Positions 2,984 through 12,079 of a stretch of 64,000 nucleotides of DNA are shown piece after piece. Positions within the stretch are counted from its first letter, which is position 1; every line of letters starts with the position of its first letter. Origin of the DNA: Spirochaetota bacterium (GTDB lineage Bacteria > Spirochaetota > UBA4802 > UBA5368); the NCBI GenBank assembly GCA_035477215.1, contig DATIKU010000014.1, positions 1-64,000 of the forward strand, read 5' to 3'. Position numbers and translations under genes: made by a program. The notes beneath the pieces are model-generated. The model saw only the letters and a program-made list of their open reading frames with translations, searched no databases and had not been told where the DNA came from.

Positions 2984-3520
2984 TCAGCGGCTGACGGGTT
3001 CTGCCTCCTCGCCGGAGTCGCCCAGCAGCATCTCCTTGACCGGGGTGTATTCGACCACCGCGACCGGTTCTTCTTCGCGGGGCACCCCGACGGCCGGCTG
3101 CGGCGTATGGACCTGGACGCTGAAATCGATCTTCTCGAAGTCTTCGGGCCGCAGCTTGTAATACGACAGGAGTACATGCAGTTTCTTGATGTACTCAATG
3201 AGTTCTTTGAGCTTGCGGTTCTTTCTGTCAATTACAGTTTTCGATTCGACGATAAGTTTTTTCAGTATTTGGTTGCGCTTTTTCAGCGTCGCCTGGAGCT
3301 CCTTTACGGTTTCGTAGTATTCCTTGTTGACGCGCCGGAAATCGATCCTGGCCAGCACGATCTCCCCGGAGTCCCTGTCCTTTTCGATGGACTCCAGGAC
3401 CTCGTTGAGCTCCTTTACCGAAAACAGGTCTTCCGTGGAGGTCTGAATCCACTTTTTGCCTTCATCGTCGGTGAATTCGGTGAGATCGGGTATGGGTGTC
3501 TTCTTGGACTTGCGGATCAA
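2984..3520 (-). CDS. Hypothetical coiled-coil protein
   Basis: I do not recognise a family. The 178 residues are charged and have no signal peptide or membrane segment. Residues about 35-120 are heptad-rich and lysine/glutamate-dense (VKELNEVLESIEK, YYETVKELQATLKKRNQIL, RKNRKLKELIEYIKKLHVL), predicting a long coiled coil. The C-terminal 50 residues are Pro/Glu/Val-rich and probably disordered. The start appears to be TTG at 3520, preceded by AAGGAAAGA. It sits 65 bases upstream of cysS on the same strand and could be co-transcribed, but nothing in it points to translation. A structural or scaffold role is only a guess. Confidence 0.7.
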   Translation of the reverse strand: MIRKSKKTPIPDLTEFTDDEGKKWIQTSTEDLFSVKELNEVLESIEKDRDSGEIVLARIDFRRVNKEYYETVKELQATLKKRNQILKKLIVESKTVIDRKNRKLKELIEYIKKLHVLLSYYKLRPEDFEKIDFSVQVHTPQPAVGVPREEEPVAVVEYTPVKEMLLGDSGEEAEPVSR

Positions 3521-3693
3521 TCTTTCCTTCCGGGCCCGGCAGGGGCCTTTCTATCATTACGAGATTCTTTCTCCACGCCGTATACTCATTATCGACAGAC
3601 ATTACTATGGCAGTATAGCCATATTTGTAAATAAAAAAGTGCGGGCGCTTTTATCTTTGACAAAACCTCGCCATTTGACGATTGTGTCCCGGT

Positions 3694-4617
3694 ATGAACG
3701 TCACCGTTCCACAGGACGTTGTCCGGCGCCTCCGGGGGCTGGGCGTGGTGAAGACCGACGAATCGCTCTCCAGGCATACCACCTTCAAGACCGGCGGCCC
3801 CGCCGACGTGCTGGTTGTTCCATCCGGCGTCGAATCACTGGGGGAGATCGTACGCATCTGCGCCGAATCCGGACTGCCGCGCACCGTAATCGGGGGCGGG
3901 TCCAATCTTCTGGTGGGAGACCGGGGTGTCCGCGGAGTCACGGTATGTATTTCGCCCGAAGCCCTGGACGCATCGGGGCCGGTCATCGAGGACGATGTGG
4001 TCTATGCTCCCGCTTCGGTCCGCAAGGAGGACTTTGTCTCCATCTGCGCGGACAAAGGCCTTTCGGGGATGGAATTCATGGCCGGAATACCCGGCTGTAT
4101 CGGCGGCGGCATTGTAATGAACGCGGGGACGGTCGACGGCAATTTCGTGGACATCCTGTACCGGGTCGAATACGTTGATACGGCCGGGGAGGTGAGGCTG
4201 CAGGAAATTGTACCCTCCATGGCGCGCTACCGGCACCTGGACGTGCAGGAGGGCGCCATCATCACCGCTGGCTGGTTCAGGTTGCGCCATGCGGACGACG
4301 GAGAGGTCGTGCGTCACAGGATACGCGAGCTGCTCGATGAGCGCGCGAAAAAGCACCCGCTCGAGTATCCATCGGCAGGGTCTGTGTTCAAGAACCCGCA
4401 GGGGTATTCGTCGTGGAAGCTGGTGAACGACGCGGGGCTCAAGGCTCACCGCATCGGCGGGGCGATGGTGTCGGAGCTGCACACCAATTTCATCGTCAAC
4501 GCCGGTGGCGCACGGTCCGCGGACATACGCGGACTTATTGAATTTATCCGGGAAACGGTGTATATTAAATTCGGCGTCATGCTCGAGCCGGAAGTACGGC
4601 TGGTCGGGGAGTTTTAG
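3694..4617 (+). CDS. murB: UDP-N-acetylenolpyruvoylglucosamine reductase
   Basis: FAD- and NADPH-dependent reduction of UDP-GlcNAc-enolpyruvate to UDP-MurNAc, a cytoplasmic step of peptidoglycan precursor synthesis. The FAD-binding part shows HTTFKTGGPAD, GGGSNLLVGD and GMEFMAGIPGCIGGG. The catalytic region has SAGSVFKNP with its proton-donating Ser, NFIVNAGG, and a late Glu in MLEPEVRL. About 307 residues and the missing extra loop make it a type II MurB. ATG 3694 is preferred over an in-frame TTG at 3682. The leader is weak: no Shine-Dalgarno is visible, and a TTGACA sits at 3657-3662, so a very short leader is possible. Confidence 0.95.
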   Translation: MNVTVPQDVVRRLRGLGVVKTDESLSRHTTFKTGGPADVLVVPSGVESLGEIVRICAESGLPRTVIGGGSNLLVGDRGVRGVTVCISPEALDASGPVIEDDVVYAPASVRKEDFVSICADKGLSGMEFMAGIPGCIGGGIVMNAGTVDGNFVDILYRVEYVDTAGEVRLQEIVPSMARYRHLDVQEGAIITAGWFRLRHADDGEVVRHRIRELLDERAKKHPLEYPSAGSVFKNPQGYSSWKLVNDAGLKAHRIGGAMVSELHTNFIVNAGGARSADIRGLIEFIRETVYIKFGVMLEPEVRLVGEF

Positions 4618-4692: not shown

Positions 4693-5508
4693 ATGGTCAA
4701 CGAATACACGAGGCTCGGCGACGCGGTTTTTTGCGCGCTGGACTTCGAGACTACCGGCGTGAATCCCGCGCTGGACAGCATCGTGGAAATCGGGATGGTG
4801 CGATTTACGCTCGACGAGACGCTCGCCACATTTTCCACGCTGATCGATCCGGACCAGGAAATACCCGAGCGCGCCATCGAGATTCACGGCATAACAAACG
4901 AAATGGTGCATGGTGCTCCGCGCATCGGCGAGGTGTTGCCCGGGGTGACCGAGTTTATGGGCGACGCGATGCTCGTAATACAGAACCCGCACTTCGACCT
5001 TACCTTTCTCGAAGTGGCCTTCAAACGGAGCGCGATGAGCGTTCCCCGGCTCTACGCCTATGATACGGTGCGCCTCTCGCGGAAAACCTTCGCCAACATG
5101 CCCAATTACCGGCTCGAGACGCTCTGCGCCAACCTCGACATCGAAAGCGCAGTCCATCACCGCGCGCTCGCCGACGCCTGCGCGTGTATGGAGGTTTTTC
5201 GCAAGGTGGTTCGTTTCCACGACGCCCTCGCGGAGTGGACCTTCGGCGATCTCACGCGGCTTCACGGCGACGCGATGCAGCCGCAGCTGACGCGCAAGGA
5301 AAAACGACGGCTTAACCTCAACAACAATATCTACCTCGGCGACGTGGTCAAAATCCGCTACATGGACGAAAGCGGCCGCGTCACAACCCGGCGCATCCTG
5401 CCCAAGGAGGTCGTAATGAACGGGAATAAAACTTATATACACGCCTTCTGTTACATGCGAAAAGAGGACCGGTATTTCAACACCCGGCGGATACTGAAGG
5501 TGTACTGA
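4693..5508 (+). CDS. DEDDh 3'-5' exonuclease fused to a C-terminal WYL-like domain
   Basis: Residues 1-175 form a DnaQ/PolC-epsilon type exonuclease: motif I DFETTG (Asp17, Glu19), motif II NPHFDLTFL (Asp102) and motif III with His156 and Asp161 (HRALAD). These are all the residues needed for two-metal 3'-5' exonuclease chemistry. Residues about 205-271 (GDVVKIRYMDESGR ... RRILPKEV ... HAFCYMRKEDRYF ... RRILKVY) match the SH3-like WYL domain, known as a nucleic-acid or ligand sensor in bacterial regulators. The protein could be a proofreading or repair nuclease steered by the WYL part. It lies 75 bases after murB with GAAAGGAAT upstream of the ATG and may share its transcript. Confidence 0.85.
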   Translation: MVNEYTRLGDAVFCALDFETTGVNPALDSIVEIGMVRFTLDETLATFSTLIDPDQEIPERAIEIHGITNEMVHGAPRIGEVLPGVTEFMGDAMLVIQNPHFDLTFLEVAFKRSAMSVPRLYAYDTVRLSRKTFANMPNYRLETLCANLDIESAVHHRALADACACMEVFRKVVRFHDALAEWTFGDLTRLHGDAMQPQLTRKEKRRLNLNNNIYLGDVVKIRYMDESGRVTTRRILPKEVVMNGNKTYIHAFCYMRKEDRYFNTRRILKVY

Positions 5509-5523: not shown

Positions 5524-5829
5524 CTACCCGGTGCAGTAGAGCCGTTTGAGGGTGCCCAGAAGCTCGGCTATTTTAGGGTCTTTCACCGAGTAAAACATGA
5601 AATTGGCCTCTTTACGGCGATTGACCATGTGTATCTTCCTGAGGACCGTAAGGTGCTGGGAGATGTTCGAGATCGACGAGCCGAATTCCTTTTCGATCTC
5701 GCCCACCGTCTTCTCCCCGTCCATGAGAAAACACAGGATTTTAAGCCTGATGGGATGGGCGATCGATTTGAGTATCTCGCTGGTGTGGTTTACCTGTTCA
5801 TCCGAGAAAAGCACGATGATATCTCCCAT
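5524..5829 (-). CDS. ArsR-family transcriptional repressor, candidate persulfide sensor
   Basis: A 101-residue winged-helix protein. The ArsR core is clear: AHPIRLKILCFLMDGEKTVGEIEKEF, then the recognition helix SSISNISQHLTVLRK and the wing VNRRKEANFMFYSV. It has exactly two cysteines, Cys33 in the helix after HPIRLKIL and Cys99 three residues from the end. A 66-residue spacing is the one described for SqrR and BigR, which form a tetrasulfide bridge when exposed to persulfides. No metal-site motif (CxC) is seen. It converges on the exonuclease gene with 15 bases between stops. A TTGACA on the minus strand at 5884-5879 could be its -35 element. Targets are unknown; sulfur-transfer genes occur elsewhere in the window. 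Confidence 0.88.
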   Translation of the reverse strand: MGDIIVLFSDEQVNHTSEILKSIAHPIRLKILCFLMDGEKTVGEIEKEFGSSISNISQHLTVLRKIHMVNRRKEANFMFYSVKDPKIAELLGTLKRLYCTG

Positions 5830-6228: not shown

Positions 6229-7944
6229 ATGAAGCTCTTCAATGTGGTTGAGGAAAAACGAACGACAGAGGTTCGGGCCGATCTCGAGCATCTGCGAAAG
6301 CTGTTTATAATGCCGGATAGCCCCGACAAGTTCCTCGAGTTCGGCCACGAACTCCTCGATCTCATCCATAACTTTTTCAAGTCCAAGGGCGGCATCCACA
6401 GCGAGATATCCCTTCCGGAACTGGCGAAGATATTTTCCGTGATGGAAATTCCGCGCCACCCGAGCTTGCTTAAAGACATTCTCGGCGAAATAAAAACCAA
6501 GGTGATCGCCCACTCGGTCAAGGTGGGCAATCCCTATTACATAGGCCACATGACCAGCGCCATTCCCTATTTCATGATCCTCCTCGAAATGATCATAGCG
6601 GCGCTCAACCAGAACCAGGTGAAGATAGAGACCGCCAAGGCCTCGACCTTTCTGGAGCGCGAACTCATCGCCTGGATCCACCGGCTCATCTTCGACCGCT
6701 CGCAGAACTTCTACCGCACGCACGTGCAGAACCACCGTATAGCGCTCGGCAACGTGACGCTCGACGGCACAATGGCGAACCTCACCGCGCTCATGGTCGC
6801 GCGCAACAAGGCGTTCCCCGCGAGCGGGCGCTTTCCCGGCATCCGCAAGGCGGGCATCTACGATGCCTACCGCTACTACAACTGCAGGCGGGCGGTTGTG
6901 CTTGTTTCGGCCCGCGGGCATTATTCCATCGAGAAGATCGCGCGCATACTCGGCATCGGAAACCACAATGTCATCAAGATACCCGTGGATACCGAAAACA
7001 GGATCGACATCGCGCGGTTGCGCCAGGTGTGCGCGCAGATCAGGGAGCAGAACGAGCGCTCCGGCGAGAAGACGAGGATCGTCGCGATCATTGGGATCGC
7101 CGGCACGACCGAAACGGGCAATATCGACGACCTTGTCGAGCTGCGCCGCATCGCGGACGAAAACGAAACCTTCTTCCACGTGGACGCGGCCTGGGGTGGG
7201 GCTCTGCTCATCGTCGACAAATACCGCCATCTCTTCAAGGGGATCGACCAGGCCGACTCCGTGACCTTCGACGCCCATAAGCTCATGTATTCCCCCCTCT
7301 CGATGGGAATGATACTTTTCAGGACCGAGACGGCGCTCAACTACATCAAGCACACCTCCAACTACATCATTCGACCGGACTCGGTCGACCAGGGGCGTTT
7401 CACTGTCGAGGGTTCGCGCCCGTTCTCCAGCCTGAAGCCCTGGGTCACCTTCAAGATATTCGGCAAGGAGGGCTTCCGCGTACTTTTCGATCACGCCTTC
7501 GCCATAACCGGGACGCTCAGGGACATCGTTACGCGGCATTCCGATTTCGAGCCGATGAATGTCCCGGATATCTTCATTTTCAACTACCGTTATGTCCCCC
7601 GCAGGGTCCAGGCCCGGCTGAACGCCCTGATGATTGAGATCGACGAGGAGGCCGATCCCTACCGGCTTATAAAGCTGTTGAAAAGACTCCGTCGCATCAA
7701 CGACACGCTGAACGAGCTCAATATCGAGCTTCACCGCGCGATACGCAAGGAGGACAACAGCTTCGTTTCGCGGACCATGGTCGAGTCCACTCGCTATCAC
7801 CCGCAGAAAATCGTGGTGCTGCGGGCCGTCACCATTAACCCGCTCACCACGCCCGAGGTATTAAAAGAGATCATCGACGAACAGAGCGGTCTGGGTGCCA
7901 GGATATTCAAATCGGAGTTCATGGACACCCTTGAGAAGCTCTAA
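6229..7944 (+). CDS. panP: PLP-dependent aspartate 1-decarboxylase, PanP-like
   Basis: Predicted to decarboxylate aspartate to beta-alanine for pantothenate synthesis in the cytoplasm. It is a group II PLP decarboxylase of 571 residues. Landmarks are YYIGHMTSAIPYF, the NQNQVKIETAKA stretch, ARGHYSIEK (His stacking on PLP), GTTETGNIDDL, VDAAWGGA and the Schiff-base lysine Lys351 in FDAHKLMY. The pattern NQN-VKIE and the GHMTSA-PYF motif are those I recall for the PanP family, which replaces the pyruvoyl enzyme PanD in vibrios and relatives; glutamate decarboxylase is the main alternative. panB in the same window supports the pantothenate role. The ATG has only a weak ribosome-binding site. Confidence 0.75.
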   Translation: MKLFNVVEEKRTTEVRADLEHLRKLFIMPDSPDKFLEFGHELLDLIHNFFKSKGGIHSEISLPELAKIFSVMEIPRHPSLLKDILGEIKTKVIAHSVKVGNPYYIGHMTSAIPYFMILLEMIIAALNQNQVKIETAKASTFLERELIAWIHRLIFDRSQNFYRTHVQNHRIALGNVTLDGTMANLTALMVARNKAFPASGRFPGIRKAGIYDAYRYYNCRRAVVLVSARGHYSIEKIARILGIGNHNVIKIPVDTENRIDIARLRQVCAQIREQNERSGEKTRIVAIIGIAGTTETGNIDDLVELRRIADENETFFHVDAAWGGALLIVDKYRHLFKGIDQADSVTFDAHKLMYSPLSMGMILFRTETALNYIKHTSNYIIRPDSVDQGRFTVEGSRPFSSLKPWVTFKIFGKEGFRVLFDHAFAITGTLRDIVTRHSDFEPMNVPDIFIFNYRYVPRRVQARLNALMIEIDEEADPYRLIKLLKRLRRINDTLNELNIELHRAIRKEDNSFVSRTMVESTRYHPQKIVVLRAVTINPLTTPEVLKEIIDEQSGLGARIFKSEFMDTLEKL

Positions 7945-10015: not shown

Positions 10016-12079
10016 TCATTTTTTTTCAACCGCGCCCGAAGCGGGGCCGTGAAGGAGACTGACCGCCCACCGGCCGGCCTGCGCGCCGGTTCCATCCTTC
10101 AGTATTATGAGAATGCCGTTTTCACCGTATCCTCCCAGGAAAAGCCCGTATCCCGTCAACCGGTTGGTGCCGGAAAGAATGGTCGCGGTCTTGCCCCACG
10201 AACGGTCGGGGTCCGATCGCCCGGTTCCGAGCACGCCGGCGGCGGTCCCTGTATCCATGGTGTCGAACAGCGCCCGTGAGATGATTGCCCGCCGCCCGGG
10301 CGCGATCTGAATTTCGAATGACGCGTTTTCCCCCGGCGAAACGAGCCGCGCGAGCGCGACCAGGCCGCGAACCGACAGGCCGAACCGGTAATCGAGCCCG
10401 GCGAGCAGGTGAGCGGATTCCCGTGGGCCGTGAACGGGAGGCATTTCGATTCGAATTCCCGCTGTGGAGAGCGATTCACAAAAGCGGCGAAAAGAGCTTA
10501 CATTGATCGAACCATTCAGGGAGGCGAAATAAAGGTTGCACGAATGCGAGAGCGCCTCACTCATGCCGACGTCGCCATGGCCCACGGGTGTCCAGCACCG
10601 TTCGGGCAGCGGCGTTCCGGCGCGACCCGTGCAGTGATACCGGTGCGCGTCGAAGAGGTCCGGCCGCTCGGCCGCGCAGTACAGCGCCACGACCAGCTTG
10701 AAGATGGAGCCGGGCGGAAGAACGCGGTTTTCGATACCCCGGTGGCTGGAGCGGGTGATCTCGCCGCTCTGGAGATCGAAGAGGGCGTGTGAAAGCCCGG
10801 GTGGGGGCGCCTCGACCTGGTGTTTATACAGCATGAAGCGGACCGCCGGATAATAGTGAGCAAGTATCTCATGGCGGGAGTATCCCCGTTGTGCGAGTCC
10901 GAGCGCGCCCTTCTGGCAGAGTCCGGCGCCGTGCCCGTTCCCGGTGCCGTTGAAGATGAATACCGTTTCGCCGCGCTCCAGTATCGTCTCAATCCGGTAC
11001 TCGTTGCTTTTCAAAAAACTCCATCCCCTGCGACGGTTGATACGCAACCTGAAGTCTTCGGCGGGGTAGCCGTGGTGCATGTCGCCGGCGCGCAGGGTTA
11101 CAGTGAGCGTCTTTGTGTCGATCGAGAGGGAAACCGGTGACAAATAAGGAGCGTCGCTCCCCGTGAGAATGGAGGCGAGGTCCTTCGCCGGAAGGCGGGC
11201 CTGCCATGCAGAGCGGGCGCCCCCGCACAGTTTCGTTCCCGTTTCCGACAGGCGGTCCCGCTCCCCATGGCAGGTTTTTCCGGCGGGGCCGAAAACGCGC
11301 GCTCCGAGCGTGCGCCCGCCGCACTCCGCGTGGAAATGCGCACCGCACGCGAGCGAACGCGGGTCGATGCGCCACGGAGTTTCCGGCGCGGGGGGGGCGC
11401 CGGCGAGGCCGCGGTAAACGACGCAGTGGGCGAGGTCGCACGCGTCGTAGTCTTTATGGGCGCGGGAGCGGCCGCCGGGTTCATGCCGGGCCTCGATGAG
11501 GAGGGTCAGGGCCTCGAACGCCTCTTCCGTGCCCGGCGGCATGGGGCCGTATTCAACGCGGGCACAATCGCGCGCGTATCGGGGAAGCCGCTCGGTGATG
11601 ATGAATTCCATGCCCCCTTTGTGGTTCCTGATCTCGAGGGGGAGAGGGTAGCGCCGCCGCTCGTTCCCGGTCCTCAGCTCGAACGTGTGGTCCGGGCCGG
11701 GCGTATCCATCATCCCCCCGAACGTGCCGCTCAGATCGCCCGCGTCGGTTACGAGCGTCCATCCGCCGACGGCGGGACGCGCTTCGGCGCGCCGTATGGA
11801 CACGCTCCCGGCACCGGATGCATCGTCGAACCGCGTGTCTTCGGGAAATAAGAAAATCGGCATGGCGGCGGCGTCGCCCTCCTGGCAGAGACGCATCGGC
11901 TTTGAAAGTATGCGAATACGAACGGTCTGTTCGTCGGTGATATCGGGGCCGTAGGTCGCCGGTGAAACGGCTCCGGGGCGCCAGGCGATCAGGAAAAAAA
12001 CGCAGAGCGGCAATAATTTAATTTTTTTTATTGACACCCGGAGGTCCTGTATGTATATTATGAGCGAGCACTCACTCAT
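10016..12079 (-). CDS. SpoIID/LytB-domain and penicillin-binding (SxxK) fusion protein
   Basis: 687 residues with an N-terminal membrane segment (residues about 21-40). Residues about 50-410 follow the SpoIID/LytB pattern, ending in GNGHGAGLCQKGALGLAQRGYS and ILAHYYP; a His-Cys-His-Cys cluster (HKDYDACDLAHC) resembles the SpoIID zinc site. Where SpoIID lytic transglycosylases have E-M-P with the catalytic Glu, this protein reads GPMP, so the domain may be inactive. Residues about 420-687 are a serine transpeptidase or class D-like fold: PPGSIFK (SxxK), SHSCN (SxN) and GKTA in the KTG position. It probably binds and cross-links peptidoglycan at the periplasmic face. The gene starts within a small ORF downstream of the alpha-2-macroglobulin gene. 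Confidence 0.8.
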   Translation of the reverse strand: MSECSLIIYIQDLRVSIKKIKLLPLCVFFLIAWRPGAVSPATYGPDITDEQTVRIRILSKPMRLCQEGDAAAMPIFLFPEDTRFDDASGAGSVSIRRAEARPAVGGWTLVTDAGDLSGTFGGMMDTPGPDHTFELRTGNERRRYPLPLEIRNHKGGMEFIITERLPRYARDCARVEYGPMPPGTEEAFEALTLLIEARHEPGGRSRAHKDYDACDLAHCVVYRGLAGAPPAPETPWRIDPRSLACGAHFHAECGGRTLGARVFGPAGKTCHGERDRLSETGTKLCGGARSAWQARLPAKDLASILTGSDAPYLSPVSLSIDTKTLTVTLRAGDMHHGYPAEDFRLRINRRRGWSFLKSNEYRIETILERGETVFIFNGTGNGHGAGLCQKGALGLAQRGYSRHEILAHYYPAVRFMLYKHQVEAPPPGLSHALFDLQSGEITRSSHRGIENRVLPPGSIFKLVVALYCAAERPDLFDAHRYHCTGRAGTPLPERCWTPVGHGDVGMSEALSHSCNLYFASLNGSINVSSFRRFCESLSTAGIRIEMPPVHGPRESAHLLAGLDYRFGLSVRGLVALARLVSPGENASFEIQIAPGRRAIISRALFDTMDTGTAAGVLGTGRSDPDRSWGKTATILSGTNRLTGYGLFLGGYGENGILIILKDGTGAQAGRWAVSLLHGPASGAVEKK

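Follow-up and report, generated by a model that had tools for sequence, protein, structure and literature searches.

A DEDDh exonuclease-WYL fusion protein encoded next to murB in a spirochaete genome

Organization of the exonuclease-WYL locus

The DNA analyzed here, referred to as the window, is a stretch of 64,000 nucleotides of contig DATIKU010000014.1 from a Spirochaetota bacterium (assembly GCA_035477215.1). It contains a gene that codes for a protein with an N-terminal exonuclease domain of the DEDDh type and a C-terminal WYL domain, and the bounds, the start codon and the length given for its open reading frame were found to be exact. The features of the locus are collected in Table 1.

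Table 1. Genes and protein features of the exonuclease-WYL locus (positions are those of the window).
Feature	Position	Strand	Basis and remarks
murB, upstream operon partner	3682..4617	+	Conserved across the order; 75-nt gap to the exonuclease-WYL gene
Exonuclease-WYL gene	4693..5508	+	ATG start, 271 aa; ORF, Pfam and alignment
RNase_T / DEDDh 3'-5' exonuclease domain, residues 15-169	4735..5199	+	Pfam, 46-sequence alignment, structure matches
Helix (184-191) after the exonuclease and low-confidence linker, approximately residues 184-213	5242..5331	+	AlphaFold2
WYL domain, residues 217-270, five-stranded barrel	5341..5502	+	R233, Y248, C253, R256, R260, R266
ArsR/SmtB-family regulator, convergent	5524..5829	-	Syntenic mainly within the family

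The full-length protein was modelled with AlphaFold2 on the basis of 46 aligned sequences, with a pLDDT of 88; residues 199-213, which link the two domains, have a pLDDT below 50. The initial annotation had correctly placed a WYL domain at the C-terminus, although its boundary at residue 200 was slightly early, within this low-confidence linker. The combination of the two domains is genuine and goes beyond chance. RNase_T was matched in all 46 members of the alignment and WYL in 41 of them.

The exonuclease domain

The RNase_T domain (PF00929) was detected with an E-value of 1.2e-35 and 124 bits, the curated Pfam cut-off being 24. The D-x-E, D and H-x4-D set is formed by D17, E19, D102, H156 and D161, all of which are invariant in the 46 sequences, so that the complete catalytic set reported in the initial annotation was borne out. 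On the basis of these residues, the domain is predicted to be a metal-dependent 3'-5' exonuclease. The closest solved structures found with Foldseek are DNA exonucleases, namely the PolC exonuclease, DinG, epsilon, ExoX and E. coli ExoI; a similarity to the Rv2179c-like exoribonuclease domain was also given by Pfam. By sequence, the domain is closest to the stand-alone PolC-type and DnaQ-like exonucleases of the 2p1j, PRK06807 and PRK07883 families, whose matched part is devoid of a WYL domain. The protein scores above the cut-off of the dnaQ family TIGR00573 and does not reach the DnaQ equivalog models (89.6 versus a cut-off of 222.7 for TIGR01406, and 95.2 versus 196 for PRK05711); its C-terminus is occupied by the WYL domain in place of the alpha-binding segment of epsilon.

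The exonuclease-WYL protein is the only RNase_T protein of its genome, and no ExoI or ExoX homologue of the RNase_T type was found in the assembly, which is 95% complete. The other nucleases of the genome are RecJ, an NrnA-like protein and ExoVII. In the PHP domain of the DnaE encoded by the same genome, the motifs for metal binding are HLHNH, LDG, TDHG, GQEF, YHLLLLA, SSACLAGE and ATNDCHY. Judging from these motifs, the metal site of this domain is apparently complete, and the polymerase can probably proofread itself.

The C-terminal WYL domain

The WYL model PF13280 matched residues 217-270 with 29.5 bits in the whole protein and 32.6 bits with the domain alone, the curated cut-off being 21.8. 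A scan of the whole genome with the same model gave four matches including the window protein (31.8 bits, E=4.6e-7). The other three are encoded by two neighbouring genes at C36:11065-12931 and one gene at C48:81780-81968 (loci L001-L003); two of the three contain a WCX domain and are regulator-like.

In the AlphaFold2 model, residues 219-270 form a barrel of five strands. When the domain was modelled alone (pLDDT 86), the 19 best Foldseek matches in the PDB were all WYL proteins, including ssDNA-bound CapW and PafBC, with rmsd values mostly of 1.0-1.9 A over about 55 residues. A sequence profile of the C-terminal domain retrieved PafBC (1.8e-17), ssDNA-bound DriD (1.2e-10) and the WYL-bearing Pif1 helicases (2e-8), as well as BrxR and CapW. 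The two outcomes that the initial annotation had named as contrary to a WYL assignment were the lack of a WYL score and a different SH3-like fold; Pfam, AlphaFold2 and Foldseek instead gave a score above the cut-off and a WYL fold. An artefact or a different SH3-like fold is thus ruled out by the PF13280 scan, the sequence profile and the Foldseek matches. A helix motif L..AI ahead of the barrel is clear in the non-spirochaete relatives, and is degenerate and of low confidence in the window protein.

In PafB, ssDNA binding is lost by variants in which one or several of the residues R181, Y196, R204, R208, R211 and R214 are altered (PMC11804915). The ungapped counterparts of these six residues in the window protein are R233, Y248, R256, R260, N263 and R266; five of the six are therefore kept with identical spacing, N263 replacing R211. 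Among 28 spirochaete relatives, R233, R256, R260 and C253 are present in all and R266 in 26. In the relatives from Bdellovibrionota, the position of R256 is mostly occupied by D or E, and that of R260 usually by K. The invariant R233, R256, R260 and C253 agree with the basic residues and the cysteine that Makarova et al. 2014 (PMC4012209) described as typical of WYL domains. The conserved basic residues support nucleic-acid binding by the WYL domain; because the conserved arginines are a general WYL signature, they are also compatible with RNA or nucleotides as the ligand.

Gene neighbourhood

We examined 30 loci of the window's order (L084-L113), two of which are cut at a contig edge. In all 28 informative loci, murB lies directly upstream of the exonuclease gene on the same strand. 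In the window's genus and in locus L090 the two genes are separated by about 75-81 nt; most other families have a spacing of -8 to +5 nt. The convergent ArsR/SmtB-family regulator is probably unrelated to the exonuclease-WYL gene. A gene for a 178-aa protein, for which no Pfam or NCBIfam match was found, lies at 2984-3520 (-) in the window and is a conserved neighbour of murB in many genomes of the order.

The neighbours in spirochaetes are murB, cysS, rlmB and similar genes, and those in Bdellovibrionota, identified by eye, are lspA-like, dacB-like and motAB-like genes. The stable link to murB and the equally ordinary surroundings in Bdellovibrionota indicate that this is a housekeeping gene. 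Among 50,697 phage records there was no match over 80% of the exonuclease-WYL protein, and 72,556 plasmids gave a single weak one. The sensing of invading DNA, which the initial annotation had also considered, finds no echo in these housekeeping surroundings, with the murB operon kept across the order.

Distribution and selection

Full-length relatives with 61-93% identity were found in spirochaete metagenome genomes, and distant relatives with about 26-37% identity in Bdellovibrionota, Zixibacteria, Methylomirabilota, Obscuribacterales and others. Within the window's order, full-length fusions occur in families f1, f3, f6 and f7 (numbering of this analysis), where the fusion gene is usually the sole RNase_T protein gene of its genome. 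No RNase_T protein was found in the four genomes of family f4 and in some single genomes elsewhere in the order, and locus L113, one of the 28 informative loci, has kept murB and the exonuclease without the WYL domain; neither the gene nor its WYL domain is therefore essential everywhere. In the rest of the phylum, many genomes have exonuclease-only forms of about 190-250 aa, and some longer forms extend into the WYL region. In the exonuclease tree, which has long branches and a midpoint root, the WYL label is clustered and well-supported branches force at least four label changes, so that the tree does not establish a single fusion event.

A different fusion was observed in genome G013 of the same order. 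The 732-aa protein encoded at L125:2317-4515 (-) consists of a membrane/PAS sensor-kinase-like region and a C-terminal DEDDh exonuclease, without a WYL domain, and its gene adjoins a sodium:solute symporter-like gene.

Pairwise comparisons of the window gene with four close relatives gave dN/dS values of 0.03-0.05 for the WYL domain versus 0.11-0.13 for the exonuclease domain, as calculated by a simple counting method and with a high dS in some pairs. The WYL domain is under tighter constraint than the exonuclease domain, and the combination of the two is under strong selection.

Comparison with known systems

In E. coli ExoI (SbcB), a ssDNA-specific 3'-5' exonuclease, an SH3-like domain comes after the DEDDh domain. 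This order of a DEDDh domain and a barrel resembles that of the window protein, as reflected in the Foldseek match, and is to be read as an analogy rather than as homology of the barrels; moreover, ExoI differs in having a further helical domain and an SH3-like domain which is not known as WYL. PafBC, DriD, CapW and BrxR have in common with the window protein the WYL fold and basic residues of the ssDNA-binding type but, unlike it, they regulate transcription and possess domains for DNA binding and dimerization. The helicase-WYL proteins of the Pif1 type (Thermotoga elfii and Deferribacter; PDB 8bns and 8bnv) carry, like the window protein, a C-terminal WYL domain on a DNA-processing enzyme, which in their case is a helicase instead of an exonuclease. 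In the passage of PMC9964779 that cites Andis 2018, the WYL domain of Pif1 is described as a tested accessory ssDNA-binding module.

The real DEDDh-WYL fusion and its conserved ssDNA-binding residues are in line with the initial interpretation of the protein, whereas the architecture is not new: a WYL domain fused to a 3'-5' exonuclease (exoRNase) was already listed by Makarova et al. 2014 (PMC4012209), with both types of domain in one protein, as here. In the main text of that paper the fusion is a list item without the lineage, operon or residue analysis presented here, to which the present analysis adds the operon with murB, the strength of the constraint on the WYL domain and the status as the sole RNase_T protein. 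Among the titles listed in literature searches, there was no functional study of an exonuclease-WYL protein.

Proposed function and alternatives

We favor, with a probability of about 0.55, the interpretation that the protein is a chromosomal housekeeping 3'-5' ssDNA exonuclease, in which the WYL domain serves as an accessory module for ssDNA binding and holds the strand, as the SH3-like domain does in ExoI. The DEDDh domain would remove nucleotides from 3' ends with the help of two metal ions, while the Sm-like barrel of the WYL domain would hold the upstream part of the strand under digestion. Such a grip on ssDNA could raise affinity or processivity, and could direct the enzyme to ssDNA arising from repair, recombination or mismatch correction, where the protein might fill the niche of ExoI or ExoX. 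We infer ssDNA as both substrate and ligand, as well as the tether and repair roles; the association with murB is uninformative on repair, and the term exoRNase used by Makarova et al. counts against a DNA substrate. Compared with a nuclease steered by its WYL domain, a plain accessory function in ssDNA binding, of the kind known from Pif1-WYL, is the more economical account of the facts.

It is conceivable, though considerably less probable, that the exonuclease is under allosteric control by its WYL domain, which would turn it on or off in response to ssDNA or a nucleotide signal, making the protein a direct damage-sensing nuclease. In DriD and PafBC the WYL domain is a switch triggered by ssDNA, the structure of CapW was solved with ssDNA, and in the window protein the WYL ligand residues are conserved and the domain is more constrained than the catalytic one. 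However, the known switches work together with HTH and WCX domains, both of which are absent here, the flexible low-confidence linker at 199-213 favors a tether over a rigid relay, and an exonuclease acting on ssDNA needs no separate ssDNA signal. The more specific proposal, that binding of ssDNA or a nucleotide would license the DEDDh site in a one-protein, transcription-independent damage-sensing nuclease of spirochaetes and Bdellovibrionota, is a shade more doubtful still. We consider rather improbable a role in RNA processing, with the DEDDh domain trimming RNA 3' ends and the Sm/Hfq-like barrel binding RNA: the WYL fold is Hfq/Sm-like, many DEDDh enzymes act on RNA, and both the Pfam similarity to the Rv2179c-like domain and the wording of Makarova et al. 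agree with it, but the nearest neighbours by structure and sequence are DNA enzymes, the solved nucleic-acid-bound WYL domains among the matches hold ssDNA, and an NrnA-like protein is available for short RNAs.

The lack of any other DEDDh protein of the RNase_T family in the genome and the TIGR00573 match would suit a proofreading subunit of DNA polymerase III, in which the WYL domain takes the place of the alpha-binding tail of epsilon. This is nevertheless unlikely, and is disfavored by the patchy loss of the gene, which several genomes of the order lack despite their good assembly, and by the apparently intact metal motifs of the DnaE PHP domain, with which the polymerase can probably proofread itself. 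Least probable by far is an anti-phage or CRISPR-associated effector. Defence islands often contain WYL proteins, and generic DEDDh and WYL models of PADLOC match the protein, but only at the level of single domains; the gene has ordinary neighbours in spirochaetes and Bdellovibrionota, is inherited in synteny across the order, and is poorly represented in mobile elements, as described above. An association with defence islands or CRISPR is ruled out by these neighbours and by the lack of the full architecture in phages.

The protein is a clean, compact enzyme in which a WYL domain can be tested as the immediate partner of a nuclease and not, as usual, of an HTH regulator. If the domain only tethers ssDNA, WYL would come to be seen more broadly as a general module for binding ssDNA; if it gates the nuclease, it would represent a new mode of damage sensing.

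Other genes in the window

A gene at 6229-7944 (+) codes for a PLP-dependent decarboxylase close to the aspartate 1-decarboxylase PanP (526.8 bits, with a cut-off of 606.1). The 687-aa protein encoded at 10016-12079 (-) has a first half which is SpoIID/LytB-like by eye, and its second half gave a weak match, below the cut-off, to the penicillin-binding transpeptidase domain PF00905; it is possibly an unusual cell-wall fusion.
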